From NCBI GenBank assembly GCA_025463135.1, contig JAOAPY010000048.1:124001-188000 (forward strand): 64,000 nt of DNA, given 5' to 3'. This document shows positions 12,769 through 34,846 of this stretch, in pieces (the first letter of the stretch is position 1; each line of letters starts with the position of its first letter). The notes under the pieces were generated by a model. That model was given only the letters and a program-made list of their open reading frames with translations. It made no database searches and was not told where the DNA came from. Origin of the DNA: Acidobacteriota bacterium. GTDB taxonomy: Bacteria > Acidobacteriota > Blastocatellia > Pyrinomonadales > Pyrinomonadaceae. A program made the position numbers and the translations under genes.

Positions 12769-12806
12769 GGGACTATTAAGCAATAATTGATCAGATAATG
12801 TAAGCG

Positions 12807-16525: not shown

Positions 16526-16744
16526 GTTTGCTTCCTTTTCGTTTTCAAGAAACATTTTGCTGAATTCAAAGATTCCGGAAGCTGCGCTCAAAATCATGCG
16601 ACAGAGACCGTCCGGACGGGAAGAAGAGCGAACTGTTGTGACTGCTTTTTTCTGCAAAGACGAACCGCTGGAATGATGTCAAGATTTATACACCGCCGTC
16701 CTCTATGTAGCAAGCATTCCCGCGAATCGGTAGTGGCTTGATTT

Positions 16745-16851: not shown

Positions 16852-17047
16852 AACAAACCTTTCACAGCGTGAACAACCGAATGCACGCTGACCGTGTGAC
16901 ACTCTCAGTGCGATAAAGCACCTGGAGGCTAAACTTTCAGCTTCATTCGAGTTAAGCAGAATGTCGAAATAAAAGATTCGCGATACGGAACTCTCTTCGG
17001 ATGTACATTCTATTGAAGAACCGACCAACAAGAAAAGCTAAAAGATT

Positions 17048-17062
17048 TTATCAATCCGATAA
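17048..17062. promoter_or_regulatory. Candidate LysR-type operator upstream of pabBC
   Basis: TTATC-AATCC-GATAA within AAAAGATTTTATC context. It fits the T-N11-A rule of LysR-type regulators and closely resembles the palindrome at 33844-33858 before the LysR gene, including the flanking AAAAGATT. Confidence 0.4.
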
Positions 17063-19525: not shown

Positions 19526-22500
19526 ATGATTGCTCGCACACTCGGCCGTATCTTCTTGCTGCTCCTGGTCATGCTCTTGCCGGTTATCGTATCGGCTCAG
19601 GTTACCACCACGGGCCGACTCACTGGTGTCGTCACCGACTCGAAAGGCGCTCTGGTCCCCAAAGCCGAGATAGTTGCCACTCAGGTCGAGACCAAGGCAG
19701 CATTCAAAACCAGCGCCAACAATGAAGGGAGCTGGGTAATTCCCTCGGTACCGATCGGCACTTATTCGATCACCGCTACCGCACCGAACTTCAAGACAAC
19801 TGTCGTCACCGGCGTCGAGGTCAATGCCGGACAGGTGGCCAGCGCCAATTCTGTGCTTGAACCCGGAGGCGCCAACGAGCAGGTGGTGGTTGCGGGAGGC
19901 GGCGAAATTCTTCAGACCGAGTCCGCCAACGTTTCCACTACAATCGTCGGCCGCCAGATTGTAGAACTTCCCTTTGTCACTCGGGATGCATTGCAGTTGG
20001 TGCTCACGTTACCGGGCGTGCAAACGCCTGGTGTACCACGCACTTCGTCAATCAATGGCTTGCCCAAGGGGTCTGTTAACCTGACATTGGACGGCGCCAA
20101 CATTCAGGATAACTTCCTGCGCAGCTCTGACGGATTCTTCACTCAAGTTCAGCCCAAGTCCGATGCCGTTTCAGAAGTCACGGTTTCGACGGCCGTGCCG
20201 GGAGCCGAAAGCGCCGGTGAAGGCGCCGTGCAGGTCCGCTTCACCACAAAGTCCGGCACACCTGAGTTCCACGGAGGCGTCTTTTGGCAATATCGCTCAC
20301 CCAACTTCAATTCCAATTACTATTTCAACCAGATCGACGGCCTGCCTCGGGACAGTCTGTTTCTGCGACAATTCGGAGGACATATCGGTGGACCGATTAT
20401 CATTCCCAAGTTGCTAAAAGATCGGAACAAAGCGTTCTTCTTTTTGAACTATGAGGAATTTCGATTGCCGCAAACTTATCCTTCGGGACAAGTCCTGGCC
20501 TTAACCGGTGACGCACGAAGCGGAGTCTTCACTTATAAGAACACGGCGGGAACTGTAGTCAGCAAGGACATCCTGGCGCTGGCCCTGTCCAAAGGCTTTC
20601 CCGGCGCAGTCGATCCGAAAGTTGCGGCCGGTCTGGCGCTCGTCGATACCGGCGTACATAGTAGTGGCTCGCTCAAGAGCCGCATTGCTTCGGCAAGTGA
20701 TTACAATCGGCTGGAATATAATTTCCAGGATCCCGGCACCAACATTCGCCGCTTCCCGACTGCTCGCTTTGACTGGAACATAAATAAGAGCCAGCACCTT
20801 GAGTTCATTCACAATTACCAGTTTTACTTTTCCGATCCCGACGGCGTTAACACGCAGCTCGATGTCGCCGGCCCGGGAACCGGAATTGTGATTGGCAAAC
20901 CAAATGTCACTGGTTCCATTTATCGTGATTCGTTTTCCTATGTGATGGCCCATCGCTGGACGATCAGCAATAACCTGGTTAACGAAATTCGGGCCACGTC
21001 CGGAGGGAACGGCACCTCAACTTTCACAAGAGAGTTCGGACCGGGGCTGTTTGATTTCTGGGGCGGCTATGCGGTCACCGGCGGTACGTACCTGGGCAAT
21101 CAGCCTTTGGGCACCGGCGCTTTTTACAATCGCCGCTCAACGTCACGTCGCAATACTCCTACCAAGGGAATTAGCGACAACATGACTTACGTCACGGGGA
21201 CCCACACGCTTAACTTTGGCGCGTCGTTCCTGCGCATCAATTCGTTTACCTCGGCGGCGAGCACGCAACTTGCTCCTCAGGTAGTGTTCGGACTAGCCAG
21301 TGGTGACCCGGTCGTCACCGGCAGCACCAACATCTTCACAACCACGAACTTCCCCGGGGCCAACAGCACGCAACTGGGCCAGGCCCAATCGCTTTATGCT
21401 TACCTGGTTGGTCGCGTCAGCTCCATCGCGCGCTCGGCCTCGCTCCAGGGCGACACGCAAAAGTATGCGTTCGATAACTTCAACGAGCTCAATCATCAAA
21501 ACGAATGGGCCTTCTTCGGCCAGGACTCGTGGAAATTCAAACCAAACCTGACCGTCAATTTCGGACTGCGTTGGGAATTCGAGCCATCGCCCATCAACGA
21601 TAACAACGTCTATACCAGGAACACATTTCCGGGTCTGTACGGTGTTTCCGGCACGGGCAATCTATTTCGCCCGGGAACCTTCAGTGGACAGCCGACGCAA
21701 TACCGTCTGTTGGCCAAAGGTGAAGCTGGATTTCCACTGCGTAAGCATGACTTCGCACCGTCGTTCGGCTTTGCCTACAGTCCGAATTTCAAGAAAGGTG
21801 TACTGCGCCGGCTGACCGGCGATAGCGGACGCACGGTCATTCGCGGTGGTTACTCAATAGCTTACACACGCGAAGGCTTCAACGCGTACACCTCGATGTT
21901 TGGCGCCAATGAAGGCGGCACGGTCACGCTTAGCGTCAGCCCGTCATTGACGCCGGGAATATTTCCGGCGGGCGGCGTGATGTTCAACTCGGGAAGGGGT
22001 ACGACTTGTTTGGGGACGCCGGTGGTTTGCACCACCGGGCTTCCGGGTATCGCACCGCCGGCTGATACCAGCAAGTATCCTTTTACACCGGTCGCCGGCA
22101 GCGCGGGCGGAGCAAACGATTTCGATGCACACCTCAAAGGTGGTTACACCCAGTCATACTCGTTCGGACTACAAAGGGAGCTGAGCAAGGACACCGCTAT
22201 TGAGATCCGCTTTGTGAGGACGCGCGGCACGCACTTGTGGCGCCAGGAAGACTTGAACGAAGTGAACATCTTCGAAAACGGATTCCTCACTGAGTTCAAT
22301 AACGCCGCGAAGAACATGCAGATCTATGCCGCCGCTAATCCGACCTTATGCTCGATATCTTCGACCGGCCAAATCACCGGCACCTGCAACTATGGTAATA
22401 GTGGACTGCCCGGCCAGGTGAATGTAAACATCCTGACTACTTCCATAGCCTCGAGCACAGACCTGACCACCGCCACCCGAATAGCGCAGGGACAAGCGGG

Positions 22501-23566
22501 CTCGGTGGCCAACAGCATCGCCTTCAATCTAACTCGTATGAATCGCCTGATCCTTGCTAACGGTGGCGTTGGTCTAATTCCCTTCACCAGCCTTCCGACC
22601 AGCTCTGGTTGCGATAACTCCTTGACCACAAACCAAACCTGCAGGTTGTCGAACTATTTCATTCTCAACCCGCAAACAACCGGCGGCGCCTTCCTGATGA
22701 CGCAGGGAACCGACACGTCATTCAATGCCCTGCAAATTGAATTGCGCCGCAGACTGTCGGCCGGTCTTCTGATTCAGGCCAGCTACCAGTTTGGAAAAGC
22801 CCTTTCGAATGCTTACGTATCTTCCTCCTCAGTCTTCTCGCAACCGAGGACCCTGCGGAACCCGCAAGCAGACAAAACCAACTCTCCCTGGGACATAAGG
22901 CATTCGCTGAAGTTTGATTACATCTATGAATTGCCGTTCGGCCCCGGAAAGCGTTGGGCGAAATCCAGTAACCCCTTCGTCAGTCGGGCGCTGGGTCACT
23001 GGCAGATTGGCGGCGTCACGCGCATTCAGTCGGGCACACCGGCACTGTTGACCAGCGGTGGCCGCGCCACTTTCAATCAAAACGATGCGGGTTTGGTTCT
23101 GCGTAACATCACCAAGAAGCAATTGCAGGATCTGGTGAAGATTCGCAAGGACCCGAGTGGTATCGTTTACTGGTTGCCACAGACTCTTATCAACAACACG
23201 CTGGCCGCATTTGGGACCAGCGGCACACTGGATCCGAGTAGTGCGTACATTGGACCACCGACGACGGCCGGGCAGCTCGGTGACCGCATCGTATTGTTCG
23301 GCCCCTGGACTGCTCGCTTTGATTTCAATGTGCTCAAACGCATTCCAGTCACCGAGCGCGTCAATGTAGAAGGCCGTGTGAGTTTCCTGAACGCCTTCAA
23401 TCGCCCGAACTTCTACCTCGGCGCTCCGACTAATGACACGAATGGTTTAAGTGCCGCCTCGGCCAGCTTTGGCCAAACACGCGCCGCCTATCGCGACATT
23501 ACGGTATCCGGCACGAACGATCCGGGAGGTCGCTTGATCGAGTTTCAATTGCGCTTGAATTTCTAA
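19526..23566 (+). CDS. Oar-like TonB-dependent outer-membrane receptor, large
   Basis: 1346 residues; ATG after a strong AGGAGG. Signal peptide at residues 1-25 (LLLLVMLLPVIVSAQ), carboxypeptidase-regulatory domain at about 28-115 (GRLTGVVTDSKGALVPKAEI), plug region at about 130-240 (NLTLDGANIQDNF, AGEGAVQVRFTTKSGTPEFH), then a beta-barrel of over 1000 residues ending LQLRLNF. A single outer-membrane protein of this size is typical of Acidobacteriota. The transported or bound ligand cannot be inferred. It is only loosely similar to the receptor at 12869, so this is not a recent duplication. It ends before a strong terminator. Confidence 0.9.
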   Translation: MIARTLGRIFLLLLVMLLPVIVSAQVTTTGRLTGVVTDSKGALVPKAEIVATQVETKAAFKTSANNEGSWVIPSVPIGTYSITATAPNFKTTVVTGVEVNAGQVASANSVLEPGGANEQVVVAGGGEILQTESANVSTTIVGRQIVELPFVTRDALQLVLTLPGVQTPGVPRTSSINGLPKGSVNLTLDGANIQDNFLRSSDGFFTQVQPKSDAVSEVTVSTAVPGAESAGEGAVQVRFTTKSGTPEFHGGVFWQYRSPNFNSNYYFNQIDGLPRDSLFLRQFGGHIGGPIIIPKLLKDRNKAFFFLNYEEFRLPQTYPSGQVLALTGDARSGVFTYKNTAGTVVSKDILALALSKGFPGAVDPKVAAGLALVDTGVHSSGSLKSRIASASDYNRLEYNFQDPGTNIRRFPTARFDWNINKSQHLEFIHNYQFYFSDPDGVNTQLDVAGPGTGIVIGKPNVTGSIYRDSFSYVMAHRWTISNNLVNEIRATSGGNGTSTFTREFGPGLFDFWGGYAVTGGTYLGNQPLGTGAFYNRRSTSRRNTPTKGISDNMTYVTGTHTLNFGASFLRINSFTSAASTQLAPQVVFGLASGDPVVTGSTNIFTTTNFPGANSTQLGQAQSLYAYLVGRVSSIARSASLQGDTQKYAFDNFNELNHQNEWAFFGQDSWKFKPNLTVNFGLRWEFEPSPINDNNVYTRNTFPGLYGVSGTGNLFRPGTFSGQPTQYRLLAKGEAGFPLRKHDFAPSFGFAYSPNFKKGVLRRLTGDSGRTVIRGGYSIAYTREGFNAYTSMFGANEGGTVTLSVSPSLTPGIFPAGGVMFNSGRGTTCLGTPVVCTTGLPGIAPPADTSKYPFTPVAGSAGGANDFDAHLKGGYTQSYSFGLQRELSKDTAIEIRFVRTRGTHLWRQEDLNEVNIFENGFLTEFNNAAKNMQIYAAANPTLCSISSTGQITGTCNYGNSGLPGQVNVNILTTSIASSTDLTTATRIAQGQAGSVANSIAFNLTRMNRLILANGGVGLIPFTSLPTSSGCDNSLTTNQTCRLSNYFILNPQTTGGAFLMTQGTDTSFNALQIELRRRLSAGLLIQASYQFGKALSNAYVSSSSVFSQPRTLRNPQADKTNSPWDIRHSLKFDYIYELPFGPGKRWAKSSNPFVSRALGHWQIGGVTRIQSGTPALLTSGGRATFNQNDAGLVLRNITKKQLQDLVKIRKDPSGIVYWLPQTLINNTLAAFGTSGTLDPSSAYIGPPTTAGQLGDRIVLFGPWTARFDFNVLKRIPVTERVNVEGRVSFLNAFNRPNFYLGAPTNDTNGLSAASASFGQTRAAYRDITVSGTNDPGGRLIEFQLRLNF

Positions 23567-23712: not shown

Positions 23713-24927
23713 TTACTCGTTATTAACCGCCCCCTTCAGCTTTTCAATCTCCGCCTTAATCAGCGCCGAGTTTGGCGCCGCGGGAACATCTCTCAAGTAT
23801 TGTTCAAAGGCCCGCAAGGCCGCCGAAGGATTCCGCTGCATCAGGTACAGTTGACCCAGAAACATTTGCGCGCTTCCGACCTGGCCTCCACCCAACTCAT
23901 AGGCTCGCACCAGTTCCCTTTCGGCCTCCGGCAATCGATTGAGTTGCAGAAAACTGCCACCCAGCAAGAGGTGCACGTTGGCAGCTTTCGGATCAAGAGT
24001 GAGTGCCTTTTCGAGCTCAGGAACAGCATCAGCGAAACGATCCTGTCGATTCAAAACCAGGCCCAGTTTGAAATGAATATCGAGCTGCGAGGATTGATCC
24101 GGGGCTGCGCCGGTCAATGCCGCGCGCAGAACTTTTTCTGCCTTCACAATCTGACCCGTGCCCAATAAGGCGTCAGCATAGGAAACCGGCAGGCCTCGCA
24201 GCGTCGTATTCTCTTCATAGAGAGTCCCGAGCACTTCTGACGCTTTTTTGAAGTTGCCCTTTAGATTCAGCACGACTCCCAGGTTCAAGCGGGCAAACGG
24301 GAATCGCGTATTAATCTTCACAGCCTGCTCAAAGATCGCCGCGGCCTCGTCCAGCCGGCGTAACTGCAAGTATAGAACGCCCAGATCATTCATCGCGCGC
24401 AGGTATTGGGGATAGAGTTTGATGGCCGTTTTGAAGTGAGTAATCGCCTGCTCGGTCTGCGCGCTGTCAACGGCTTTCATTCCTTCGTCATAGGCTGCGC
24501 GGGCAGCGGCCGGCACCGCGGTGTCGAGACTGGCCACGTCAATCGCTGCGGGCGGCGGCTTTGGCTTGCCTCTAAAGGCCGGCAAAAAAACTGTAGCGTA
24601 AACAGGCTGATTGCGCATGATGCGAAAGCTGGTTGAGGCCGCGTCGAATGTTAGACCATCGCTGTCAACTGTAACGACGTACTCGGATTCACGAATCAAA
24701 TCGAGGGTGAACTGGTACTTCCCTTTCGTATCGGTAAACAGGGTTTCGATGCGGCCATCGCTGCGGGTCAGGGTGAAGCGGATCGGGCGCGGCGGCAGGC
24801 TGCCGTCCGGCATGAACATTTGGATCGAACACGGAGCCTGGGCTGAAATAGCGGGCGCCAGCGCGAGCAGACCAGGTATTACGAACCAGAGAGCCGCGAA
24901 ATGGGACCAGCGCAGACGTCGCCGCAT
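23713..24927 (-). CDS. Secreted tetratricopeptide-repeat protein
   Basis: 404 residues with a signal peptide (residues about 12-30, LWFVIPGLLALAPAISAQA). Residues 33-120 form a small beta domain resembling carboxypeptidase-regulatory folds (RFTLTRSDGRIETLFTDTKG). After a proline-rich linker (KPKPPPAAIDV), residues about 143-395 hold six or more TPR units (for example AMNDLGVLYLQLRRLDEAAA and HLLLGGSFLQLNRLPEAERE). It is probably a periplasmic scaffold for protein contacts. It is convergent with the large receptor, with no operon partner. I see no catalytic motif. Confidence 0.82.
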   Translation of the reverse strand: MRRRLRWSHFAALWFVIPGLLALAPAISAQAPCSIQMFMPDGSLPPRPIRFTLTRSDGRIETLFTDTKGKYQFTLDLIRESEYVVTVDSDGLTFDAASTSFRIMRNQPVYATVFLPAFRGKPKPPPAAIDVASLDTAVPAAARAAYDEGMKAVDSAQTEQAITHFKTAIKLYPQYLRAMNDLGVLYLQLRRLDEAAAIFEQAVKINTRFPFARLNLGVVLNLKGNFKKASEVLGTLYEENTTLRGLPVSYADALLGTGQIVKAEKVLRAALTGAAPDQSSQLDIHFKLGLVLNRQDRFADAVPELEKALTLDPKAANVHLLLGGSFLQLNRLPEAERELVRAYELGGGQVGSAQMFLGQLYLMQRNPSAALRAFEQYLRDVPAAPNSALIKAEIEKLKGAVNNE

Positions 24928-25382: not shown

Positions 25383-27872
25383 TCACTCATAAATCAAAAA
25401 GCGCCGGCGCGCGCGCAGAAACTGTTCGAGGCCGGGACGCCAGGCGCGCGCGATCTCTTCAGCAGTTTCCCCGCGTTTAACTTTCGCGAGCGCGTCTGCG
25501 TTAGCCAACAAGCGCAGGTAATCGTCAACCTTCCAATCCTGTGGATAAAGGCGGCGCAAAGCCACCGCAATTTCCAAACCTGCAAGCACGGGACGAAACT
25601 GACTGCGATTGGTAATGATTATGTTGATGCCGCTGCATTCCACTGCTTTGAAAACCGAGCTCTGCGGCGTGAACCTGACCGGCACGAACCGCACGCCTGC
25701 GATCTGCCGGTCATTCAAATAAGCCGCAAGCTCTGGCCCCTTGATCCAAGGGGCGCCAACAACTTCGAACGGCGTGTCCGTACCACGACCCACGGAAACA
25801 TTCGTCGTCTCCAGCAAACCGATTCCCGGATACAGAGTTGCCTCAGTCAAACTTCGCATGTTCGGCGAGGGATTGATCCAGGTGAGATTGGTTGAGTCGA
25901 ACCAGTAGGTCCGTCGCCACCCTTCCATTCTAATAACCCGCAAGTCACAACCAAGCCGGCGCTGCTCATTATAAAGCTGTGCCAGTTCGCCGATAGTCAT
26001 TCCATGCCGCACCGGAATCGTGTGATATGAAGTGAATGATAACTTGTCCGCATCCGCCACCGGACCCTCTACCTCCACACCACCGATCGGGTTTGGGCGA
26101 TCGAGAACATACACCGGCAGGTGGGCCCTGGCCGCTTCTTCCATGACATAGCCGAGAGTGGAAATGTAAGTGTAGAACCGCGTGCCGACGTCCTGAATGT
26201 CATACACAATCGCATCCAGATCCTTTAACTGTTCAGGCCGCGGCCGGCGCGTATCGCCGTAAAGCGAAAATATCGGCAGGCCGGTCCGTTCATCCTTCGC
26301 ATCAGAAACGTTTTCATCGGCGCCGCCACGGATTCCATGTTCCGGCGAAAAGAGTGCGACCAGTCGCACACCCGGCGCCGCACGTAGTACATCAATGGTC
26401 TGCCGGCCATCCCGATCGCGTCCGGTATGATTGGTTACCAGTCCTATGCGCAAGCCTGACAATTGTTTGAAACCGTCCCGCTTCAGCACGTCGATGCCGG
26501 TCATGATCCTTGCGCCGGCCCTGCTGATATCGGAAGCTGTCGCGGCGAACACTCCTATATTCTTTACCATCTCAGCGTAATAAGTTCCCAGGCGCAGCCG
26601 CGCGCGCGATACTGCCGCGCCATCCTCAACTGCCGCAGCCACAATCGATGCGACGCGCGCGCGCAGGGGCCCGACATCGCCCTTCCCGTCCGGATGCACT
26701 CGATTACTGAGAAAGATTACGAATGTCTCACTGGCCGGATCGATCCAGATTGAAGTTCCGGTAAAGCCTGTGTGGCCAAAGGATCCGAGCGGAAACAAAT
26801 CACCGCGATTAGTGGAAAAGCTGGTGTTAATGTCCCAGCCTAATCCTCGCGTCCAGCCCTGCTCCGAAACCAGACGAGGCCTGGTCATCTCGGCCACGGC
26901 CAGGGGACTAAGGATCCGCACACCGTTGTATTGACCGCCGTTAAGAATCATCTGGGCATAGATGGCAAGATCGTCCGCAGTGGAAAACAGCCCGGCATGG
27001 CCCGCGACGCCATCCATGCGATAAGCGGTAGGATCATGAACTTCGCCGCGCAGCCACTGCTCCCCTTCGGCCCCGGCATTGGTGCTGGTATCTCCGAGAT
27101 AACTGAGTTGACCACGACGTCGTTCGGTGGGAGCAATGCGATCTTTAAGCGCAGCAGCCGGCCGGAATCCGGTATCGTGCATGCCCAACGGGATGAAAAT
27201 GTTTCGTCGCGCAAACTCATTGAGCGGTAGGCCACTGGCGCGACGAACCACTTCACCGAGCGCAATATAATTGATGTCGCTGTAAAGAAAACGCGCGCCG
27301 GGCTGATTGCGCAATGGTTCCTTGATGAGTCGCTTGATCGCTTCGTCGTAACCGATCCAGCGTTCCTTCAGATCAAAATCAGGAGCGTAACCCGCACGGT
27401 GCGTCAGGAGTAATTCAATTGTGATTCGTTCCCGCCCGTCCCCTTTGAGCTCCGGAATGTATTGCGATAACGGATCGCTCAAACGCACCTTACCGCGCTC
27501 AACCAGGAGCATGATGCTGGTAGCCGTGGCCATGACTTTCGTGAGACTCGCCAGATCAAAGATCGTATCCGGCATCATGGCTTCGTGCTTTGGTTCGATT
27601 GCTCGCTCTCCGTAAGCTTTGCGCCACACCACCCGACCTTTGCGCGCTACCAACACCACCGCGCCCGGCAATTGATGTTTAGCAATCGAGTCCGCGATCA
27701 GCTGATCCATTTGACCGAGGCGGTTGGCCGAAAGTCTGACGGTTGCCGGGATAGATCTCGGAAGCTGACTGGAAAATGTCTGCGGGCAGATAGAAAACAA
27801 AAGTAGCAGAGCCGAGGCAAGGCGAACCTTCGCCGACCTGATCATTGAAGAACGAAAGGAAAATTGATTCAT
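25383..27872 (-). CDS. Fused beta-lactamase-fold hydrolase (AmiE-like) and NamZ-type exo-muramidase
   Basis: 829 residues from ATG 27872 (ATG 27845 is an alternative; neither has a good Shine-Dalgarno). Signal peptide at about 14-35. Residues about 45-415 are a serine beta-lactamase/PBP4*-type domain with S109-L-T-K112 and Y197-S-D, and GHTGFTG at the third box. Residues about 455-829 are a DUF1343/NamZ domain (GLVTNHTGRD, FSPEHGIRG, YDIQDVGTRFYTY, DRPNPIGG, INPSPNMRS). NamZ of B. subtilis removes non-reducing-end MurNAc from peptidoglycan; its operon partner AmiE, a beta-lactamase-fold protein, cleaves the MurNAc-peptide bond. The fusion would do both steps in the periplasm; the amidase role is inferred from context. 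Confidence 0.88.
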   Translation of the reverse strand: MNQFSFRSSMIRSAKVRLASALLLLFSICPQTFSSQLPRSIPATVRLSANRLGQMDQLIADSIAKHQLPGAVVLVARKGRVVWRKAYGERAIEPKHEAMMPDTIFDLASLTKVMATATSIMLLVERGKVRLSDPLSQYIPELKGDGRERITIELLLTHRAGYAPDFDLKERWIGYDEAIKRLIKEPLRNQPGARFLYSDINYIALGEVVRRASGLPLNEFARRNIFIPLGMHDTGFRPAAALKDRIAPTERRRGQLSYLGDTSTNAGAEGEQWLRGEVHDPTAYRMDGVAGHAGLFSTADDLAIYAQMILNGGQYNGVRILSPLAVAEMTRPRLVSEQGWTRGLGWDINTSFSTNRGDLFPLGSFGHTGFTGTSIWIDPASETFVIFLSNRVHPDGKGDVGPLRARVASIVAAAVEDGAAVSRARLRLGTYYAEMVKNIGVFAATASDISRAGARIMTGIDVLKRDGFKQLSGLRIGLVTNHTGRDRDGRQTIDVLRAAPGVRLVALFSPEHGIRGGADENVSDAKDERTGLPIFSLYGDTRRPRPEQLKDLDAIVYDIQDVGTRFYTYISTLGYVMEEAARAHLPVYVLDRPNPIGGVEVEGPVADADKLSFTSYHTIPVRHGMTIGELAQLYNEQRRLGCDLRVIRMEGWRRTYWFDSTNLTWINPSPNMRSLTEATLYPGIGLLETTNVSVGRGTDTPFEVVGAPWIKGPELAAYLNDRQIAGVRFVPVRFTPQSSVFKAVECSGINIIITNRSQFRPVLAGLEIAVALRRLYPQDWKVDDYLRLLANADALAKVKRGETAEEIARAWRPGLEQFLRARRRFLIYE

Positions 27873-27898
27873 GATCTATAAATCGGTTGCGGGTGTTT

Positions 27899-28090
27899 TT
27901 AACGCCGAGGGCGTTCGCCAATTCCAGCCCAGGGTAACCACCCTGGGACGGCCGATTCATTATTAATTTCAGAACACTGAAGGTGTTGGTAAAGCAACGG
28001 ACCACGATTTTCGCAAACCCTTTCAGGGTAGCAAATCAAAGGTACTCAGGGTGTTACCCTGGGCTGGAATGTGCCAACACCTTCGGCGTT
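27899..28090. repeat. Family C nested palindrome inside the salvage cluster
   Basis: Outer arms AACGCCGAGGGCGTTCGCC and GTGCCAACACCTTCGGCGTT; inner hairpins CCCAGGGTAACCACCCTGGG and CCCAGGGTG..ACCCTGGGCT. It lies between nagZ and the amidase-NamZ gene. A second copy is at 42495-42704 between xylG and xylH. Confidence 0.8.
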
Positions 28091-28152
28091 AATTTCAGTT
28101 CTAGTTGCTCTCATTCGGCCCCGCGTTGATCTGGCAAGGTCCGATTCGAAGA

Positions 28153-30030
28153 CTACTGCTTCTTCAACTGTATTCCCGTCCCGCGCGGGTAAAGTCCAGG
28201 CAACGAAATAGGCAGCTTTCCCGTGATGTCGATTTGCCCTAACACCGACCGGGCCGCCGCTTCCTGCAGGCTGGGCATATCACCATAGGCCACGAGATAG
28301 GTTCGCAGTTGCGGGAAACTCATCAACAAGTATGGATTACCAAAACTGATAGCCACGATTCGGGTCTTTTTTTCCAACAGAGCCGAAAGCGCACCTCTTC
28401 CTGGCCCGGGAAGATCGACGCTACGCTTTTCACCTGAACGCACACGTCCATACAGCGAGACGATGATCACCTCGGCTTCCATGGCACGGTCCACGGCTTT
28501 GAGTATCTCTGGCACGGTTGAGCGGTCGTCCAGCACCATGGTATCTATTTTATAGCCGGCGCGAGTCATCGTCCCAACAAAAGCGTTCGCCACAAATAGG
28601 CGATCATCACCATTCGTGATCGCCAGGTTAAAGATGCGACTTTCCGGTTTGAGATTCTTGAGCGGTAATAACTTATCTTCGTCGCGCACCAGCGTGATCG
28701 CATGCTCCGCCGTCTCGCGCGCCAGATCGAGAACGTCACGACTGCCGACTATGCGGTCGATCTGGTCCAATGGGGTGATGCGATTCTTTTCCAATCCCAG
28801 GTCATACTTCGCCGCCAGCAGCTTGCGAGCCGAATCCTCAATTCGTTTTTCAGAAAGACGCCCCGACTGCACTGCGGTACGCACACCACGTAAGGCAGCA
28901 TCCGCATCTGCCGGCTTTAGCAGCAGATCGGCGCCGGCCTCGAGCGCCCGCACGGCCGCTTCTTCCTGCGTGAAATAAATGGTCAAACCACTCATGCTCA
29001 AAGCGTCAGTAACAATCATACCGTTGAAGTGGAGATCGTTGCGCAAGATGCCGCCGATGACCGGAGACATTGTCGCCGGCATTGTTCCCTGCCCTTCGAT
29101 CTCACCTGCTTCAGTCGTATCCGTGGGTTTGCCCTTAACGTTTTTTGGCAGCGGCTTGACGACTGTTGGATCCACTTGCGGCAGGCCGATGTGTCCCATC
29201 ATCACGGCTCCCACGCCCACATCCACTGAGGCGCGAAAAGGAACCAGCTCGACACTGTTCAGCCGTCCGCGGTTGACATCTATTTCCGGCAGGCCGCGGT
29301 GGGAATCTACTGCCGTGTCTCCGTGTCCGGGAAAGTGTTTCGCGGTGGCGATGACGCCGCCGCGCTGTGCACCTTCAGTGAATGCCGCTGCAAAGCGCGC
29401 TACGTCTTCCGGATCTTCTCCATAAGAGCGAACATTAATTACCGGGTTGGCTGCGTTGTTGTTGACGTCAACTACGGGCGCGTAAATCTGCTGGATCCCG
29501 AGAGCTCGTGCTTCGCGAGCAGTTAACTCGCCCTGTCGCCGGGCAAAGTCAGAATTTCCCGTGGCGCCTACTGCCATGTTCCAGGGGAAGTTGACTGTGT
29601 CGTCAAAACGCATTCCCGAGCCGGCTTCCAGGTCGGCCGAAACCAGCAGCGGATAGCGAGCCTGTTCCTGCATGCGGTTGACCAGCATCACCGACTCGTA
29701 GACAGGCCCACGGAAAAGAATGATGCCGCCGACATGATTGTCCACTACCTGATGTCGCAGGGCCCGATAAGCGTCGCTGTCCTGATTCAGGAAAGTCGCG
29801 TTGATGCCAACCGAGATCAGCTGCCCAATCTTCTCGTCGAGTGACATGCGATGCAGTTGTTTGTTGGCCCACTTAATTGCAGCCTTGCTCGGTGTCGACG
29901 AATAGGGTTTGACTTCTCTACTTTTGGCGTAGGCCGGATCATCGATCTTAAAAAGCGGCACCACCAGGAGGGCCGCCATCAACAAAACCGAAATGGCGCG
30001 GACTTTCCTCCTAATGATTTCTGACCTCAT
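28153..30030 (-). CDS. nagZ: Beta-N-acetylglucosaminidase, GH3
   Basis: 625 residues from ATG 30030; the longer frame to 30138 overlaps the symporter gene, and the signal/anchor (residues about 10-27, VRAISVLLMAALLVVPLF) begins naturally at this start. GH3 NagZ signature K231-HFPGHGDTAVDSH244, with the D242/H244 acid-base dyad, and nucleophile D342 in IVTDALSMSG. A C-terminal domain (about 430-625) follows, as in the two-domain B. subtilis enzyme. It cleaves GlcNAc from the non-reducing end of GlcNAc-MurNAc units, giving ends that NamZ can then attack. It is exported, unlike the cytoplasmic enterobacterial NagZ. The gene follows the symporter after 31 nt. Confidence 0.92.
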   Translation of the reverse strand: MRSEIIRRKVRAISVLLMAALLVVPLFKIDDPAYAKSREVKPYSSTPSKAAIKWANKQLHRMSLDEKIGQLISVGINATFLNQDSDAYRALRHQVVDNHVGGIILFRGPVYESVMLVNRMQEQARYPLLVSADLEAGSGMRFDDTVNFPWNMAVGATGNSDFARRQGELTAREARALGIQQIYAPVVDVNNNAANPVINVRSYGEDPEDVARFAAAFTEGAQRGGVIATAKHFPGHGDTAVDSHRGLPEIDVNRGRLNSVELVPFRASVDVGVGAVMMGHIGLPQVDPTVVKPLPKNVKGKPTDTTEAGEIEGQGTMPATMSPVIGGILRNDLHFNGMIVTDALSMSGLTIYFTQEEAAVRALEAGADLLLKPADADAALRGVRTAVQSGRLSEKRIEDSARKLLAAKYDLGLEKNRITPLDQIDRIVGSRDVLDLARETAEHAITLVRDEDKLLPLKNLKPESRIFNLAITNGDDRLFVANAFVGTMTRAGYKIDTMVLDDRSTVPEILKAVDRAMEAEVIIVSLYGRVRSGEKRSVDLPGPGRGALSALLEKKTRIVAISFGNPYLLMSFPQLRTYLVAYGDMPSLQEAAARSVLGQIDITGKLPISLPGLYPRGTGIQLKKQ

Positions 30031-30061
30031 TTGTTTTGAAGAGTAAGCTCGAGAGTTTGCG

Positions 30062-31663
30062 TTACCTCGGCGACAGTTCGTCCTGACGTTCGACCGGGGT
30101 GGGCGCAAAGGCATACCCGGCCAGCCAGGCAACCACAAAAGTGATTATGCTGCCCAGCAACACGTACCAGGTCCAGGCGATGGGCGTCCAAAAACGTATA
30201 TAGAGCATGACGACAATGCTGACAATCATGCCAATGAGCGCCGGCGGCTCGCTCACCTTTCGCAAAAAAGTCCCTACTAAAAATACCCCGAGCACCGGGC
30301 CATTGATCAGTGAAGCAATCGATAAAGCCTGATCCAAAGCCGATCGATTCTGTCGCATAGCTAAGAGGGCCACTCCGATTTGCAAGACTCCCCAAAGGAG
30401 CGTCAACCAGTGGGACACTCGCAGATAGTGTTTGTCATCACGTTTCGGCCTGAATGGTTTATAGAGATCATTGACCGCCGTCGCGGCAATGGAATTGAGC
30501 GAGGACGAAAGTGCCGCGGCGAAAATCGCTGCTACTACCAAACCAGACAGACCCGTAGGCATGAACTTGGTAATAAAGTCAGGAAATACGCGATCGCCGC
30601 CAACCGCCTGGAACACGCCACCCACGGGCAGCGTGGCGACGCCCGATCCCAGCGCAGCGTATCCCGGGTCAGTCTGCGGTCCATAAAACGCAAACAGCAG
30701 CACGCCGATAAACAAAAAGCCGACAAACTGCGCAAACACAACCGCGCCGCTGGACAAAAGGGCCGCGGCCGCGCGTCGCGGTTTGTCGGTGCACAAATAA
30801 CGCTGTACCAGATACTGATCGGTCCCGTGCGTGCTCATTGTCAAGAAACAGCCGCCGAGGAGGCCCGCCCAGAACGTATAGGTCTTAGTCAAATCGATCG
30901 GCAACGTAAAATTTAACGCGCCGTCGGTGAACGGCGCCTTAAAAGCGTAGACCGTCGGCCTGATGCCGAAATCAATGAAGTTGAATTTATGGTATTGCTC
31001 GCCCAGCGCAATCGCTTGCGGCCAGCCGCCTTTGATGGCCATGATCAGCACCACTCCGGCCATGGCCGCGCCCGCCAGATAGATCCCCAACTGCACGACC
31101 TCGACCCAAATTACCGCCTCCATGCCGCCAAAATACGTAAAGATAATCATCACCACGCCCAGCAGCACGACGGACCCAATAACAATTGTTTCGGTATTCG
31201 CCTGCGGTTGAAAAGCGGTGTAAACCGCGGCCAGAACGAATGCCGTCAAGAGCAGACGTATGCCGTCGGCGATGTTGCGCATCACCACGAAAAGTGAGGC
31301 CGCGAGCATTTTGATGCGATTGCCAAAGCGCCGCTCGAGCAGCTGATAGACCGTCAGCAACTCGCCACGAAAATACGAAGGGATAAAAAGCAGCGAGATG
31401 ACCACGCGGCCCAGCATGTATCCCAGCACAAGCTGCAGGAACTCAAAATTGCCGCCGCGTGCGAAAGCGATCCCCGGTACGGAGATGAAAGTAATCGTGG
31501 AAGTCTCAGTGGCGACAATCGACGCGGCGATGGCCCACCACGGTACGGTGCGATCGCCAAGAAAATAATCACGCGTCGTTTCCTGCTTGCGCGAGAACCA
31601 AACGCCGAACAACGTGATACCAATCAAGTAGCCAAAGATGATTACCAGATCGAGTGGCTTCAT
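30062..31663 (-). CDS. Sodium/solute symporter, probable amino-sugar uptake
   Basis: 533 residues with about 13 hydrophobic segments, starting LDLVIIFGYLIGITLFGVWF and containing TRDYFLGDRTVPWWAIAASI, the usual first cytoplasmic loop of the SSS family (SGLT/NanT-like). Its ATG overlaps the murQ stop (ATGA), so it is translationally coupled to murQ. In E. coli and B. subtilis MurNAc enters by the PTS protein MurP; here no PTS gene is seen and a kinase is present. The parsimonious inference is that this symporter takes up free MurNAc and/or GlcNAc with sodium. Substrate specificity is not visible from sequence. Confidence 0.87.
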   Translation of the reverse strand: MKPLDLVIIFGYLIGITLFGVWFSRKQETTRDYFLGDRTVPWWAIAASIVATETSTITFISVPGIAFARGGNFEFLQLVLGYMLGRVVISLLFIPSYFRGELLTVYQLLERRFGNRIKMLAASLFVVMRNIADGIRLLLTAFVLAAVYTAFQPQANTETIVIGSVVLLGVVMIIFTYFGGMEAVIWVEVVQLGIYLAGAAMAGVVLIMAIKGGWPQAIALGEQYHKFNFIDFGIRPTVYAFKAPFTDGALNFTLPIDLTKTYTFWAGLLGGCFLTMSTHGTDQYLVQRYLCTDKPRRAAAALLSSGAVVFAQFVGFLFIGVLLFAFYGPQTDPGYAALGSGVATLPVGGVFQAVGGDRVFPDFITKFMPTGLSGLVVAAIFAAALSSSLNSIAATAVNDLYKPFRPKRDDKHYLRVSHWLTLLWGVLQIGVALLAMRQNRSALDQALSIASLINGPVLGVFLVGTFLRKVSEPPALIGMIVSIVVMLYIRFWTPIAWTWYVLLGSIITFVVAWLAGYAFAPTPVERQDELSPR

Positions 31664-32601
31664 TTGTCGTCTTTGGGATTGGTCACGCGATGAATTTCAG
31701 CGGCGCGATTTACCACCCCTCCCGAAGCAGCGAGGGCCCGTTCCGCCGCTGTCAGCGAACAGCCCTCTTTCGCCATCAACAAAGCCGCCGGCAGGCTGCC
31801 ATTGGCCCTTGCCAGACTTTCGCCGGCGGCGCGTTCATCAATTCCGAGTTCGGCCATGATTATTCGCAAAGCGCGCGCGCGCAGTTTTGCATTGCGGGTT
31901 TGCATGTTGGTCATGCGGTTCCCGGTGACATAACCTAATTTCACCATCGTGGCGGTCGATAACATGTTCAGTACCATCTTCTGCGCCGTTCCGGCTTTCA
32001 AACGCGTCGAACCGGCCACTACTTCCGGGCCAACCACGGGAACAATACTCACCTGAGCCGCCGCTACAATAGGAGATTCAGGTGTGCAGGTGAGCGCGAT
32101 CGTAAAGGCGCCCAAAGAACGAGCATAAGATAGCGCGCCGATCGTGTATGGCGTCCGCCCTGAAGCGGCGATTCCCACCAAGGCATCATCTCTCGTAAAA
32201 CCCCGCGCCCTCAGATCATTCTGACCCGCCTCCGCGTCATCTTCCGATGCCTCTACTGCACGATAACACGCTTCATAACCACCGGCGATGACGGCCTGGA
32301 CCATATCCGGAGAAACACCAAAGGTTGGCGGACATTCAGCCGCATCAAGTACGCCCAAGCGGCCTGATGTGCCCGTGCCCACATAAAACAATCTGCCCGT
32401 GTCGCGTAGCCGGCTCACTATTCCTTCGACGGCCTGCGCCACTGCGGGTAAAACGCTTTTGACCGCACCGGCCACCAATGCATCCTCGTCATTCATGACG
32501 CTGACGATTTCTGCAATGGAGAGTGAGCTAAGATTGGTTGTGCGCGGATTTTCTTGTTCGGTAATAGGAAGCGGATCTGAGCTTAAGTAAATGTTATCCA
32601 T
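31660..32601 (-). CDS. murQ: N-acetylmuramic acid 6-phosphate etherase
   Basis: 313 residues. SIS-domain signature YVGTGTSGRLGVLDAAECPP with E89, and SEDD with E120. The 31-residue spacing equals that of catalytic E83 and E114 in E. coli MurQ. It splits the lactyl ether of MurNAc-6-phosphate to give GlcNAc-6-phosphate and D-lactate. The C-terminal helix bundle with VTGNRMTNMQTRNAKLRARA is present, and length is normal. A family B repeat separates it from the upstream kinase gene; the downstream symporter overlaps by 4 nt. D-lactate formed here could feed an FAD-linked oxidase such as GlcDE, but that is speculation. Confidence 0.95.
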   Translation of the reverse strand: MDNIYLSSDPLPITEQENPRTTNLSSLSIAEIVSVMNDEDALVAGAVKSVLPAVAQAVEGIVSRLRDTGRLFYVGTGTSGRLGVLDAAECPPTFGVSPDMVQAVIAGGYEACYRAVEASEDDAEAGQNDLRARGFTRDDALVGIAASGRTPYTIGALSYARSLGAFTIALTCTPESPIVAAAQVSIVPVVGPEVVAGSTRLKAGTAQKMVLNMLSTATMVKLGYVTGNRMTNMQTRNAKLRARALRIIMAELGIDERAAGESLARANGSLPAALLMAKEGCSLTAAERALAASGGVVNRAAEIHRVTNPKDDK

Positions 32602-32631
32602 GCGAATTCTGCGTTGTTCTCAAAAGAGTAG

Positions 32632-32728
32632 TGCCCTAACTTCTTTTGTAACGCAAACTGTTAGTTTGCGAAGATTGAATGGCATTCAACGGGGCCGCAA
32701 ACTAACAGTTTGCGTTACAACTTAGGGC
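32632..32728. repeat. Family B element, best-preserved copy
   Basis: GTAACGCAAACTGTTAGTTT... (32648-32670) and its perfect inverse (32696-32718), with inner palindrome TTGAATGGCATTCAA. Flanking GCCCTAA...TTAGGGC extends the inverted symmetry to 32632-32728. It sits between the kinase gene and murQ. Confidence 0.85.
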
Positions 32729-32747
32729 GGAAATCTGAAGAAAGCAA

Positions 32748-33740
32748 TCAAACTGCCAGAGCGACACTACTGTTGTGCTCTCGCGCCATCCGGGCCGCGG
32801 CAACTGCCGGACTGAATCGCGGCGGCGCCAGGTAGGCTTTCGGAGCGATACGCTCAACTTCACGCCTAAGTGGCTCGAGCACCAGTTCGCCCGCCGCAAA
32901 TACGCCTCCCACAAAGGCTACCTGGAAACGTTCCTGCTCCATTTTCAATCCGCGAATCACAGCAGCAGCGGCAATTCCCAGCTCCCTTCCTGCGGCCGTG
33001 ATGATCTCCCGCGCCACCTGATCGCCTTCTTTGGCCGACTCGATTACCAGTTTCGCAAATCCCGCAATCCGGTCGTTGGTCATCGTCGGCGCATAAAGCG
33101 CGGTGGACAGATCGTCAGCTGTCGTCACGTGGAAATAGGAACATGCGGCGGCGGTCAGCGACGTCCCGGGCCCGCGACCGTCCGCCGCGTGCGCAATCGC
33201 GCTCAAGGCCCGGCGCGCAATCCAGGAACCGCCACCCTCATCGCCGGCCATGGGCCCCCAGCCGCCCGCGCGCAAGCATCGGTGGCGCGCGTTAATTCCG
33301 CAACTGACTGACCCGGTGCCGGAAATCACCACCACACCCGGCTCGCCATCCGTGGCGCCAAACAAGGCGATCTCTGCATCACCAACTACCTCGAGCTCAC
33401 GGATGCCCAGGTTGCGCAACGCTTCTGCCATACGCGCACTCAACTCTTTGCGGCGGGCGCCCGCTACACCAATTACAATCGCCACGATCTCGGATCTTCT
33501 GATGCGGGCCGCGGCACAGGCCCGATCGATGGCCTCTCGGATCGCGGCCGCCGCCACCGTGATGCCTACTCGTAAAGGATTCGAAGGACCAGCGTCGCCC
33601 TCGCCCAGGATATTGTCCTCCGCGTCGATCACCACCGCGTGCGTCTTGGTCCCGCCACCGTCAACGCCCGCAAAAATTTCGCGTGGTTGAATCCGTCGCG
33701 TTGCTACCAAATCCGCTGACCGCTGGGCGGTAGTTGCCAT
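32748..33740 (-). CDS. BadF/BadG-type amino-sugar kinase (GlcNAc/MurNAc kinase-like)
   Basis: 330 residues of the ASKHA fold: phosphate-1 loop FAGVDGGGTKT (residues 24-33), adenosine/phosphate-2 stretch VVISGTGSVSCG, and the sugar-kinase hallmark GGWGPMAGDEGGGSWIARRA. This family includes eukaryotic N-acetylglucosamine kinase and bacterial MurK, which phosphorylates both MurNAc and GlcNAc at O6. First gene of the minus-strand salvage cluster, followed by murQ, so MurNAc (and probably GlcNAc) is the likely substrate. It has a divergent promoter region shared with a LysR gene. Glucosamine kinase is the main alternative. Confidence 0.86.
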   Translation of the reverse strand: MATTAQRSADLVATRRIQPREIFAGVDGGGTKTHAVVIDAEDNILGEGDAGPSNPLRVGITVAAAAIREAIDRACAAARIRRSEIVAIVIGVAGARRKELSARMAEALRNLGIRELEVVGDAEIALFGATDGEPGVVVISGTGSVSCGINARHRCLRAGGWGPMAGDEGGGSWIARRALSAIAHAADGRGPGTSLTAAACSYFHVTTADDLSTALYAPTMTNDRIAGFAKLVIESAKEGDQVAREIITAAGRELGIAAAAVIRGLKMEQERFQVAFVGGVFAAGELVLEPLRREVERIAPKAYLAPPRFSPAVAAARMAREHNSSVALAV

Positions 33741-33797: not shown

Positions 33798-33828
33798 TTG
33801 ATTATTCTAGGTAAGCGTGACGTATAAT
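33798..33828 (+). promoter_or_regulatory. Candidate promoter of the LysR-type gene
   Basis: TTGATT-N19-TATAAT, with a perfect -10 at 33823-33828. On the other strand a weaker TAGAAT (33804-33809) could serve the kinase gene. Transcription would start near 33835, before the palindrome at 33844. Confidence 0.42.
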
Positions 33829-33843
33829 GGAAACTAAAAGATT

Positions 33844-33858
33844 TTATCGTTACGATAA
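33844..33858. promoter_or_regulatory. Candidate LysR-type operator between kinase and regulator genes
   Basis: TTATCG-TTA-CGATAA is a perfect 6-bp inverted repeat and contains T-N11-A, the LysR-type binding rule. It lies about 25 bases before the LysR start codon. It would overlap the start of the regulator transcript (autorepression) and lie upstream of a kinase promoter (activation). Confidence 0.55.
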
Positions 33859-33883: not shown

Positions 33884-34846
33884 ATGGAAATCAGACAACT
33901 GAGGGCGTTCGTCGCCATAGCTGAGTCGGGAACGTTTACTGCCGGGGCGGTCCGGGTGCACGTCACCCAAGCCGCGGTCAGCATGCAAATCCGTCAACTC
34001 GAGAATGAAGTTGGCGCCAAGCTTTTTATTCGCGCGCCCCGCAATGTGATTCTCACGGAAGCGGGCGAGAAACTGCTCGAACGCGCCCGCCATATTCTGA
34101 TCGAGCACGATGCGGCCCTGGAAGAAATTGCCGAACTCGCCGGAGCGCGGCGTGGTCGTTTGCGTATCGGCAGCGCCTCAGCCGGCGTAACCTCTGATCT
34201 GCTGCCGCGAATCCTGAAGGGAATGCGCAGGGAATATGCCAACGCTGATATCTCAGTCACTTCGGGCACCAGCGATGCTCTGGTCCAACAGATTCTCACT
34301 GCCGAAATCGATATCGCATTTGTCTCGCTGCCGGTCGAGGCCCGCGGCATTCACACTGAGCGGTTGAATGAAGATCAGCTGGTAGCGATCGCCTCGCCGC
34401 GGCACGCGCAGGCCCGCCAGCGCACCGTCAGTGCCTACGCGCTGGCCGGTGAAAGACTGATCCTGGGCGAACGCGGTGGCAATACGCGGCGTTTGATTGA
34501 CGAATTTTTTGCCCAGGCGGGAGTAAAACCTACGGTCGCGATGGAACTCAGTCGCCAGGCCGCGATCAAGCGCATGGTCGAGGAAGATATGGGAGTGGGC
34601 GTTGTTCCGCTACAGTCCGTGCGAGATGAAGTGGACAAGGGGCGCCTGGTGCGCTGGTGGATTGAAGGCGCGCAGATTAACTGGCAACTGGGATTAGCAC
34701 GACTCTCAGGCGGGTACGAGTCGCCAATGCTTGAGGGTTTCATTCGTCTTTGTCATAAGTATTTTGCCGTTAAGGCGGAAGAGAATGTAGCGCGGAAACC
34801 AAAGACTCCGGCAAAGCAGAAAGGTAAGACAAAGTCGTCGCGTTAG
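33884..34846 (+). CDS. LysR-family transcriptional regulator
   Basis: 320 residues. N-terminal winged helix at residues 1-60 (MEIRQLRAFVAIAESGTF, then VHVTQAAVSMQIRQLENEVG, typical of LysR), effector domain at about 90-295, and a lysine-rich tail (KPKTPAKQKGKTKSSR) that is unusual and probably disordered. It is transcribed away from the kinase-murQ-symporter-nagZ-namZ genes with 143 bases between, the classical layout for a LysR protein controlling the divergent operon. The nearest functional analogue is AmpR, a LysR protein sensing wall fragments. B. subtilis and E. coli use RpiR-type MurR instead. Control of the salvage cluster is inferred. Confidence 0.9.
   Translation: MEIRQLRAFVAIAESGTFTAGAVRVHVTQAAVSMQIRQLENEVGAKLFIRAPRNVILTEAGEKLLERARHILIEHDAALEEIAELAGARRGRLRIGSASAGVTSDLLPRILKGMRREYANADISVTSGTSDALVQQILTAEIDIAFVSLPVEARGIHTERLNEDQLVAIASPRHAQARQRTVSAYALAGERLILGERGGNTRRLIDEFFAQAGVKPTVAMELSRQAAIKRMVEEDMGVGVVPLQSVRDEVDKGRLVRWWIEGAQINWQLGLARLSGGYESPMLEGFIRLCHKYFAVKAEENVARKPKTPAKQKGKTKSSR

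Follow-up and report, generated by a model that had tools for sequence, protein, structure and literature searches.

The window analysed here, a 64,000-nucleotide stretch of an Acidobacteriota genome (6.48 Mb in 56 contigs), carries on its minus strand at 25383-33740 the genes of a kinase, an etherase, a symporter and two predicted exported hydrolases. We consider it likely that these genes belong to a catabolic regulon for peptidoglycan sugars which works without a sugar permease of the phosphotransferase system (PTS). Salvage of N-acetylmuramic acid (MurNAc) is well supported by the gene families, their order and its conservation, the co-occurrence of MurK and MurQ, the absence of AnmK and of PTS enzyme IIC (EIIC), and a promoter element that is repeated in the window. 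Judged from its genes, this soil-type acidobacterium appears to dismantle wall sugar chains outside the cytoplasm, to import the muramic acid and to turn it into sugar phosphates under one switch protein.

A conserved gene cluster for probable MurNAc salvage

Pfam and NCBIfam matches confirmed the positions and the order murK-murQ-SSS symporter-nagZ-amiE:namZ fusion that had been assigned by inspection of the letters and open reading frames (ORFs) alone (the sequence-only reading), including the 4-nt overlap between murQ and the symporter gene (symporter start at 31663, murQ stop at 31660). The gap between murK and murQ is 146 nt, and with the ATG at 30030 taken as the nagZ start, 31 nt separate the symporter gene from nagZ. 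For comparison a set of 40 relatives was used, the own genome included, and the surroundings of murQ were taken from 29 other genomes (G and L numbers denote genomes and loci respectively). The sequence-only reading had proposed such a comparison, and the cluster is indeed conserved: the same order, headed by a divergent lysR gene (LysR<>murK-murQ-SSS-nagZ-amiE:namZ) and in some cases with an extra ORF, recurs in seven relatives (G002, G007, G010, G014, G015, G018 and G022), which is not explained by chance. In G008, G021 and G023 the fusion is placed across lysR, on its far side, and in G025 and G036, from another family, an operon murK-SSS-amiE:namZ-receptor was found with murQ on a separate contig. 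The constant divergent LysR partner, the AmiE-like appearance of the hydrolase half of the fusion and a receptor gene beside nagA are points beyond the earlier reading. Its description of 25383-33740 as a complete cluster was too strong, as nagA and the receptor gene lie outside this region and a nagB-like gene (PF01182, 261.7 bits; a family that presumably also includes 6-phosphogluconolactonases) lies on another contig of the own genome.

Co-occurrence of MurK and MurQ

The product of murQ (31660-32601, minus strand), a MurNAc-6-phosphate etherase (TIGR00274, 348.9 bits against a cut-off of 302), was the sole match over this cut-off in its own genome. MurQ was detected in 30 of the 40 genomes, 29 of them above the cut-off and one, G017, with 299.9 bits. 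MurK was likewise present in 30 (29 with at least 230 bits and G001 as contig-end fragments), and the two sets were identical. A perfect match of this kind would have a chance of 1 in 847,660,528 if the genomes were independent; as they are related, the true weight of the co-occurrence is lower than this figure. Across the phylum, MurQ was found in 35 of 99 genomes at E<=1e-60. AnmK was detected in none of the 40 genomes, with the same search positive in 5 of 14 control genomes and E. coli as positive control. EIIC (PF02378) was absent from the own genome and found once among the 40 (G026, a genome without MurQ), and RpiR (PF01418) was absent from the own genome and found in 10 of the 40, E. 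coli again serving as positive control for both. This agrees with the earlier proposal that MurNAc salvage in this acidobacterium proceeds with no PTS permease. As AnmK is missing from all 40 genomes and EIIC from all 30 with MurQ, MurK is the only recognised source of MurNAc-6-phosphate for MurQ. A complete lack of the PTS was ruled out by enzyme I, which scored over its cut-off in 37 of the 40 genomes including the own one, so that the cell is not PTS-free in general and only the sugar permease is absent. As a side observation, a HAD-type phosphatase gene, a candidate for a MupP-like role, lies directly 3' of murQ in two relatives (L045:3822-4499 and L058:3318-4118).

MurK resembles a kinase for both amino sugars

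murK (32748-33740, minus strand) codes for a BadF/ASKHA-type kinase (PF01869, 153.9 bits) with MurNAc, probably MurNAc and N-acetylglucosamine (GlcNAc), as predicted substrate. When a profile built from the MurK proteins of 20 relatives was run against PDB chains, the best chain was C. acetobutylicum MurK (8zo3, named a MurNAc/GlcNAc kinase) with 243.5 bits; S. tokodaii hexokinase reached 174.6 bits, human NAGK 153.3 bits and 1zc6, a putative bacterial GlcNAc kinase, 122.4 bits. An AlphaFold2 model of MurK (mean pLDDT 89) also led to 8zo3 at Foldseek rank 1 (TM 0.83), with the S. tokodaii hexokinase close to it (0.80). The Tannerella type of MurK, with its Ser-Pro-Leu lactyl pocket, was not recognised in the window kinase, and Tannerella MurK (8oqw) obtained only 37.4 bits with the profile. 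The window kinase is of another clade than Tannerella MurK, and MurNAc would still be allowed as its substrate. MurNAc kinases require small residues where most homologues have Glu or His (PMC10465942). The window kinase has a RAGGWG stretch, of which GGWG is common to C. acetobutylicum MurK and human NAGK, and these small residues, as in NAGK, permit MurNAc but do not prove it.

The cluster could also be mainly a route for GlcNAc or chitooligosaccharides, in which kinase and symporter would serve GlcNAc and MurQ would merely clear muramic acid. This would fit the profile matches to NAGK and 1zc6, the release of GlcNAc by NagZ and the use of nagA for both sugars, and a Caulobacter GlcNAc cluster combines a TonB receptor with nagA (PMC13046382). 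Yet the identical distribution of MurK and MurQ in 30 of 40 genomes, without AnmK or EIIC, would leave MurQ without a recognised substrate source unless MurK is that source, and amiE:namZ tracks MurQ (28 of 30 MurQ-positive versus 1 of 10 MurQ-negative genomes); we regard the GlcNAc route as improbable. The two explanations partly merge, because the best match of the kinase, C. acetobutylicum MurK, carries both sugars in its name. Within a MurNAc salvage pathway, a dual kinase would also take the GlcNAc freed by NagZ.

The hydrolases NagZ and AmiE:NamZ

nagZ (28153-30030, minus strand) encodes a predicted exported two-domain GH3 beta-N-acetylglucosaminidase (PF00933, 280.8 bits). Its ORF is listed from a TTG at 30138; the ATG at 30030, past the symporter stop, opens an N-terminus that by eye looks like a signal peptide. 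Residues 81-653 aligned with B. subtilis YbbD/NagZ (3bmx, 235.2 bits) over nearly the whole length, and two other GH3 chains scored higher (6k5j with 259.2 and 3sql with 239.6 bits), with the best stretch in the first domain only. The last of the five genes (25383-27872, minus strand; PF00144, PF20732 and PF07075, the latter formerly named DUF1343) encodes a predicted exported fusion of an AmiE/YfeW-like serine hydrolase (PF00144, residues 56-403) with an exo-beta-N-acetylmuramidase NamZ (NamZ_N, 476-675; NamZ_C, 680-828). The best NCBIfam relative of the hydrolase half was PRK03642 (PBP4B, which we take to be E. coli YfeW) with 203.9 bits, below the cut-off of 385, and we infer an AmiE identity for this half. 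B. subtilis AmiE is of the same beta-lactamase-like class, and ybbC of B. subtilis is presumably namZ. In B. subtilis, amiE is encoded beside nagZ and ybbC (PMC5061867). At the level of families (GH3, PF00144, NamZ_N, NamZ_C), a NagZ-AmiE-NamZ trio encoded together with murQ was found in the window as well.

Among the 28 MurQ-positive genomes with the fusion, it was whole in 24 and cut at a contig end in four (in G004 and G024 with one domain only); the MurQ-negative genome with the fusion is G032. The fusions most similar to that of the window, among the 80 loci kept, came from Pyrinomonadaceae (L069, 71% in the best segment) and other Acidobacteriota. A combination of PF00144 with DUF1343 was listed once in a 2008 survey (PMC2605481), and Rhodothermus RmNag3 is a NagZ-type enzyme fused to a beta-lactamase domain (PMC6987092). 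Because such fusions are on record, we do not claim the fusion as new, although the parts of these two sources available describe no amidase-exomuramidase fusion in a MurNAc operon.

Most of the 40 genomes, with and without MurQ, also have separate NamZ domains that lack a hydrolase domain (for example G006, G011, G020, G026, G028, G030, G034 and G038). In seven Acidobacteriota loci (L074, L080, L086, L113, L125, L131 and L140) the fusion was seen with genes for an SSS symporter and an amino acid permease in its vicinity; of these loci, L131 alone had murQ and a weak murK match within the stretch covered.

A symporter as predicted MurNAc importer

The gene between murQ and nagZ (30062-31663, minus strand; PF00474; TIGR00813, 208.4 versus 184 bits) codes for an SSS-family symporter that is predicted to import MurNAc in a MurT-like role. 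Its best PDB relative was the sialic acid symporter SiaT (5nv9, 168.6 bits), in which carboxylate binding is assigned to Ser60, Thr63 and Arg135 (PMC5931594). Pairwise alignment with SiaT matched Ser60, Thr63, Gln82 and Arg135 to identical residues of the window symporter; in the multiple alignment Ser60 and Thr63 were kept, Gln82 and Arg135 were not, and Thr58 corresponded to Glu in nearly all rows. A close symporter (E<=1e-60) was present in 26 of 30 MurQ-positive and in 1 of 10 MurQ-negative genomes. In five genomes with murQ elsewhere, a symporter gene lies near murK: it adjoins murK in G025, G027 and G036, and is one gene off in G031 and about 1.5 kb off in G035; the symporter of G036 is a more distant one. 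A tree was built from 37 sequences with arbitrary rooting and without L070, which is a fragment; SiaT took a very long branch. In this tree the symporters of the slot between murQ and nagZ fell into at least two SSS clades, separated by starred branches, which suggests that one transporter has replaced another at this position with the rest of the cluster retained.

A further observation concerns the region of the SiaT Na2/Na3 serines, where 19 of the 37 aligned symporters lack three residues (FAAAL---SSSLNS versus FAAAMSTLSSSLNS). The loss is carried by the window symporter, L036, L039, L040, L046, L051, L057-L060, L063, L065 and L069, and further by L160, L162, L163, L164, L166 and L168. Its recurrence in many genomes speaks against an assembly error, and the loss may alter sodium coupling.

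A LysR gene and a repeated operator-like element

lysR (33884-34846, plus strand; PF00126, PF03466) is divergent from murK and adjoins it in all 21 family-f1 genomes that have MurK. The intergenic region contains a stretch that is strongly conserved across the f1 genomes. In the window this stretch holds an operator-like element upstream of murK (element 1; 33823-33858, minus strand) composed of the inverted repeat TTATCGTAACGATAA and AATCTTTTAGTTTCCATTATA, with a -10-like TAGAAT at 33809-33804; the element was found at murK in 20 of the 21 f1 genomes. TTATCGTAACGATAA is a perfect inverted repeat, TTAT-N7-ATAA, which fits the T-N11-A pattern of LysR boxes. The 23-nt core, with up to three mismatches allowed, matched only once across the entire own genome, at murK, and 35 times in the 40 genomes, 20 of these matches being at murK. 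The reversed pattern as control gave 10 matches (in G005, G019, G022, G023 and G024), and lone three-mismatch matches in those genomes are thus near chance.

With a 36-nt matrix built from the 20 murK sites, a second, weaker element was detected in the window upstream of the receptor-nagA genes (element 2; 17027-17062, minus strand; -10-like TAGAAT at 17012-17007). It scored 29.0 and ends in CTTGTT where element 1 has ATTATA; with the window's own training site left out of the matrix, elements 1 and 2 scored 51.6 and 29.3. Element 2 differs from the core at four positions and for this reason is outside the result of the 23-nt search. As a control, the best of 100 resampled windows scored 4.2, and neither the window nor 397 kb of the own genome nor 1.14 Mb from other loci (L066-L141 minus three cluster-bearing ones) gave a further match above 5. 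Both elements end 13-14 nt ahead of TAGAAT. Of the 15 core matches away from murK, 10 had loci and were scored with the matrix: four exceeded 30 (G022, G012, G018, G002) and lie in the right orientation upstream of receptor genes of the same class, and the remaining six scored at most 16.9. A dyad element near the divergent target promoter that is common to the target operons, as for a LysR regulon, was thus found, and a single LysR regulon probably includes nagA and the gene of the outer-membrane receptor. A general scan for promoters and terminators gave no clear excess over shuffles.

Instead of a LysR operator, the 36-nt element might be no more than a divergent core promoter preserved through common ancestry. 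The genomes are related, the distance from the element to TAGAAT is nearly constant, and the reverse complement of ATTATA is a -10-like TATAAT for lysR. A core promoter should be more frequent than this element, for which 397 kb of the own genome gave no other match above 5, and would not be expected at a second, non-homologous promoter of the window and before the receptor genes of four relatives; the TTAT-N7-ATAA repeat also speaks for a LysR box. We give this explanation little credence and retain that of an operator.

The receptor-nagA unit

The genes behind element 2 code for a TonB-dependent-receptor-type outer-membrane protein (12869-16657, minus strand), predicted to import wall fragments, and for the GlcNAc-6-phosphate deacetylase NagA (11548-12783, minus strand; TIGR00221, 303.2 versus 225.65 bits). 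On the same strand, nagA follows the receptor gene after a gap of 85 nt, and element 2 precedes the listed receptor start by about 370 nt. The window receptor matched OMP_b-brl_4 (612.5 bits) and CarboxypepD_reg over cut-off and gave no Plug match; Plug scored over cut-off in L035, L200 and L202. In G018 (L206), an operator-like site is followed by a receptor gene with 70% identity and then by nagA. L063 and L064 have the order amiE:namZ-receptor-nagA, with receptors 57% and 55% identical to that of the window, and G009 has murK-murQ-one gene-receptor (33%)-nagA. A receptor-type gene directly after the fusion on the same strand was found in G007, G008, G012, G021, G023, G025, G032, G036, L063 and L064, as called by Pfam for G007, G008, G012 and G023 and by BLAST only for the others. 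From the operator-like site and the synteny, receptor and nagA probably belong with the MurNAc genes, which strengthens the earlier suggestion that nagA at 11548 would finish the route.

The receptor also bears on the origin of the sugars. Recycling of the cell's own turnover products, instead of feeding on foreign walls, has a precedent in the B. subtilis set, which recovers its own MurNAc mostly in the transition and stationary phases (PMC5061867), and with AnmK in none of the 40 genomes the E. coli-type anhydro-MurNAc route cannot run as known. An apparently co-regulated receptor-type outer-membrane protein would, however, point to uptake from outside, and MurQ and MurK are missing from 10 of the 40 relatives, as for an optional nutrient route; we therefore consider pure recycling unlikely, though less so than the two alternatives discussed above.

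Proposed pathway

In the catabolic pathway that we favour, wall fragments would pass the outer membrane, probably via the receptor encoded beside nagA. In the periplasm, NagZ would remove GlcNAc, the AmiE-like domain would strip off the stem peptide and the fused NamZ domain would free MurNAc, which the SSS symporter would import. MurK would phosphorylate MurNAc, and probably GlcNAc too; MurQ would remove D-lactate to give GlcNAc-6-phosphate, NagA would deacetylate it, and a NagB-like enzyme encoded elsewhere would complete the route. The divergent LysR protein would act on both 36-nt elements and so switch on the murK operon and receptor-nagA together.

Several points weigh against this scheme. 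The sequence of the kinase alone cannot tell MurNAc from GlcNAc, a second, weaker BadF-type kinase (104-146 bits) occurs in six MurQ-positive genomes, and the scheme offers no explanation for the uptake of GlcNAc. The co-occurrence was counted over related genomes without correction for kinship. G009 and G017 have MurK, MurQ and LysR but neither the fusion nor a close symporter, the operator-like element is absent in G017, and the second site of the window is much weaker than the first. The comparison with SiaT residues, which would argue for an acidic sugar as substrate, depends on the alignment (four of four pairwise, two of four multiple), and with at least two SSS clades in the slot the symporter owes the label of a MurNAc symporter to its context. 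G032 (L229) retains an operon symporter-amiE:namZ-receptor without MurK or MurQ, so that symporter, fusion and receptor can serve another route, with either another fate of MurNAc or another substrate as alternatives. As several receptor-type proteins are encoded in the regions read, proximity alone is a weak argument for the receptor. Finally, all substrates, the direction of transport, the binding and effector of LysR and the membership of the receptor are predictions from sequence.

A possible D-lactate branch and neighbouring genes

Two candidate accessory genes lie on the plus strand, one for an FAD-linked D-2-hydroxyacid (glycolate/D-lactate) oxidase (4902-7661; FAD_binding_4, FAD-oxidase_C) and one for a GlcF-like iron-sulfur subunit (10001-11377; PRK11274 GlcF, 267.7 bits, below the cut-off of 333). 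Among 138 loci (L033-L141 and L205-L233, overlapping and many of them short), oxidase homologues were found in three, beside the murK cluster of G002 (L046), beside nagA of G018 (L206) and about 7 kb from nagA of G009 (L230), and GlcF-like homologues near the cluster in L046 and L206. The oxidase is a possible sink for the D-lactate released by MurQ and may serve as a lead. Between the two genes lies one for a gamma-glutamyltranspeptidase (7742-9514, plus strand), seen also in L046 and L230; since wall peptides hold gamma-D-Glu bonds, a role on the peptide side is possible. In the widest form of the proposal, a wall-sugar-sensing LysR protein would run a whole Acidobacteriota regulon of TonB-type muropeptide import, an amidase/exomuramidase in one polypeptide, exchangeable SSS symporters, a dual MurNAc/GlcNAc kinase, MurQ, NagA and the D-lactate oxidase. 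We put this forward tentatively, as a real possibility that falls somewhat short of our preference.

The fusion gene is followed by a gene for a TPR protein (23713-24927, minus strand; TPR families), which has the same place in L069 and may close the operon. Beside the fusion, at 19526-23566 (plus strand), another receptor-type outer-membrane protein is encoded, and L069 repeats the arrangement of this receptor and the TPR protein with 72% and 58% identity. Genes of TonB_C, SIMPL, HAD, glycosyltransferase and haem-oxygenase-like types were rejected as constant parts of the cluster, as they occur among or beside its members only in single relatives or pairs, and a large gene after murQ in L042, considered as a receptor, codes for a sensor kinase.

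Comparison with known systems

In E. coli, the operon order is murR/murQ-murP-yfeW. MurQ is common to both systems, and of the NCBIfam models that of PBP4B comes closest to the hydrolase half of the fusion, whereas PTS uptake, an RpiR regulator and the AnmK route are features of E. coli. The B. subtilis operon murQ-murR-murP-amiE-nagZ-ybbC (PMC5061867) shares with the window the hydrolase set outside the cytoplasm, the MurQ chemistry and a NagZ that aligned over nearly the full length. In comparison, the PTS protein MurP and the RpiR-type MurR are replaced here by symporter, kinase and LysR, the AmiE-like and NamZ domains are combined in one protein, and an outer-membrane receptor is added. 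Caulobacter GlcNAc clusters also encode a TonB receptor with nagA, but they are described as GlcNAc-specific, with PTS, nagB and a GntR-type regulator and no MurQ in the genome (PMC13046382). AmpR is likewise a LysR-family regulator linked to wall fragments by muropeptide sensing (PMC13046382). Unlike the LysR protein proposed here it controls beta-lactamase, and no AmpR model was among the 25 best of 55 NCBIfam matches.

The closest precedent is murTKQ of T. forsythia, for which MurNAc uptake by a member of the sodium-symporter superfamily, a cytosolic ATP kinase and MurQ, encoded together and without PTS, are described in PMC5790795, PMC10465942 and PMC7670621 (Ruscitto 2016 as cited there). 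The window shares the combination of a symporter-family importer, a BadF/ASKHA kinase and MurQ in the absence of a PTS permease. The division of uptake and phosphorylation between an SSS symporter and a kinase, which the sequence-only reading had set against the known PTS-dependent operons, therefore stands as a layout, but a non-PTS layout is not new, as murTKQ is already published (PMC5790795). Differences remain in the kinase, which is nearest to C. acetobutylicum MurK (243.5 bits versus 37.4 bits for Tannerella MurK), and in nagZ, amiE:namZ, the divergent lysR and the linked receptor-nagA pair, all additional in the window. T. forsythia is moreover auxotrophic for MurNAc and has a pathway that leads from this sugar to its wall (PMC5790795).

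Among the matches listed from open-licence literature (titles and abstract openings), we found no LysR regulator of MurNAc use or LysR-controlled MurNAc operon and no TonB receptor or outer-membrane importer for MurNAc; the literature matches listed likewise contained no MurNAc use by Acidobacteriota. As far as can be told, the link of regulator and operator, the receptor-nagA unit, the pairing with this type of kinase and the apparent exchange of the symporter in place are new. If the proposal holds true, this would be the first MurNAc regulon known to us under a LysR regulator and with a dedicated outer-membrane receptor for wall sugars; murK, murQ, amiE:namZ and the LysR element would provide a marker set for wall-sugar feeding, and the 36-nt element would be a direct way to further members of the route, for example the outer-membrane importer. 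In soil, the remains of bacterial walls form a large pool of carbon and nitrogen, and Acidobacteriota are abundant there. The gene set may help to explain how dead bacterial walls are recycled. Compared with T. forsythia, it suggests that the PTS was replaced by a symporter and a kinase in both Bacteroidota and Acidobacteriota, with kinases from clearly different clades.

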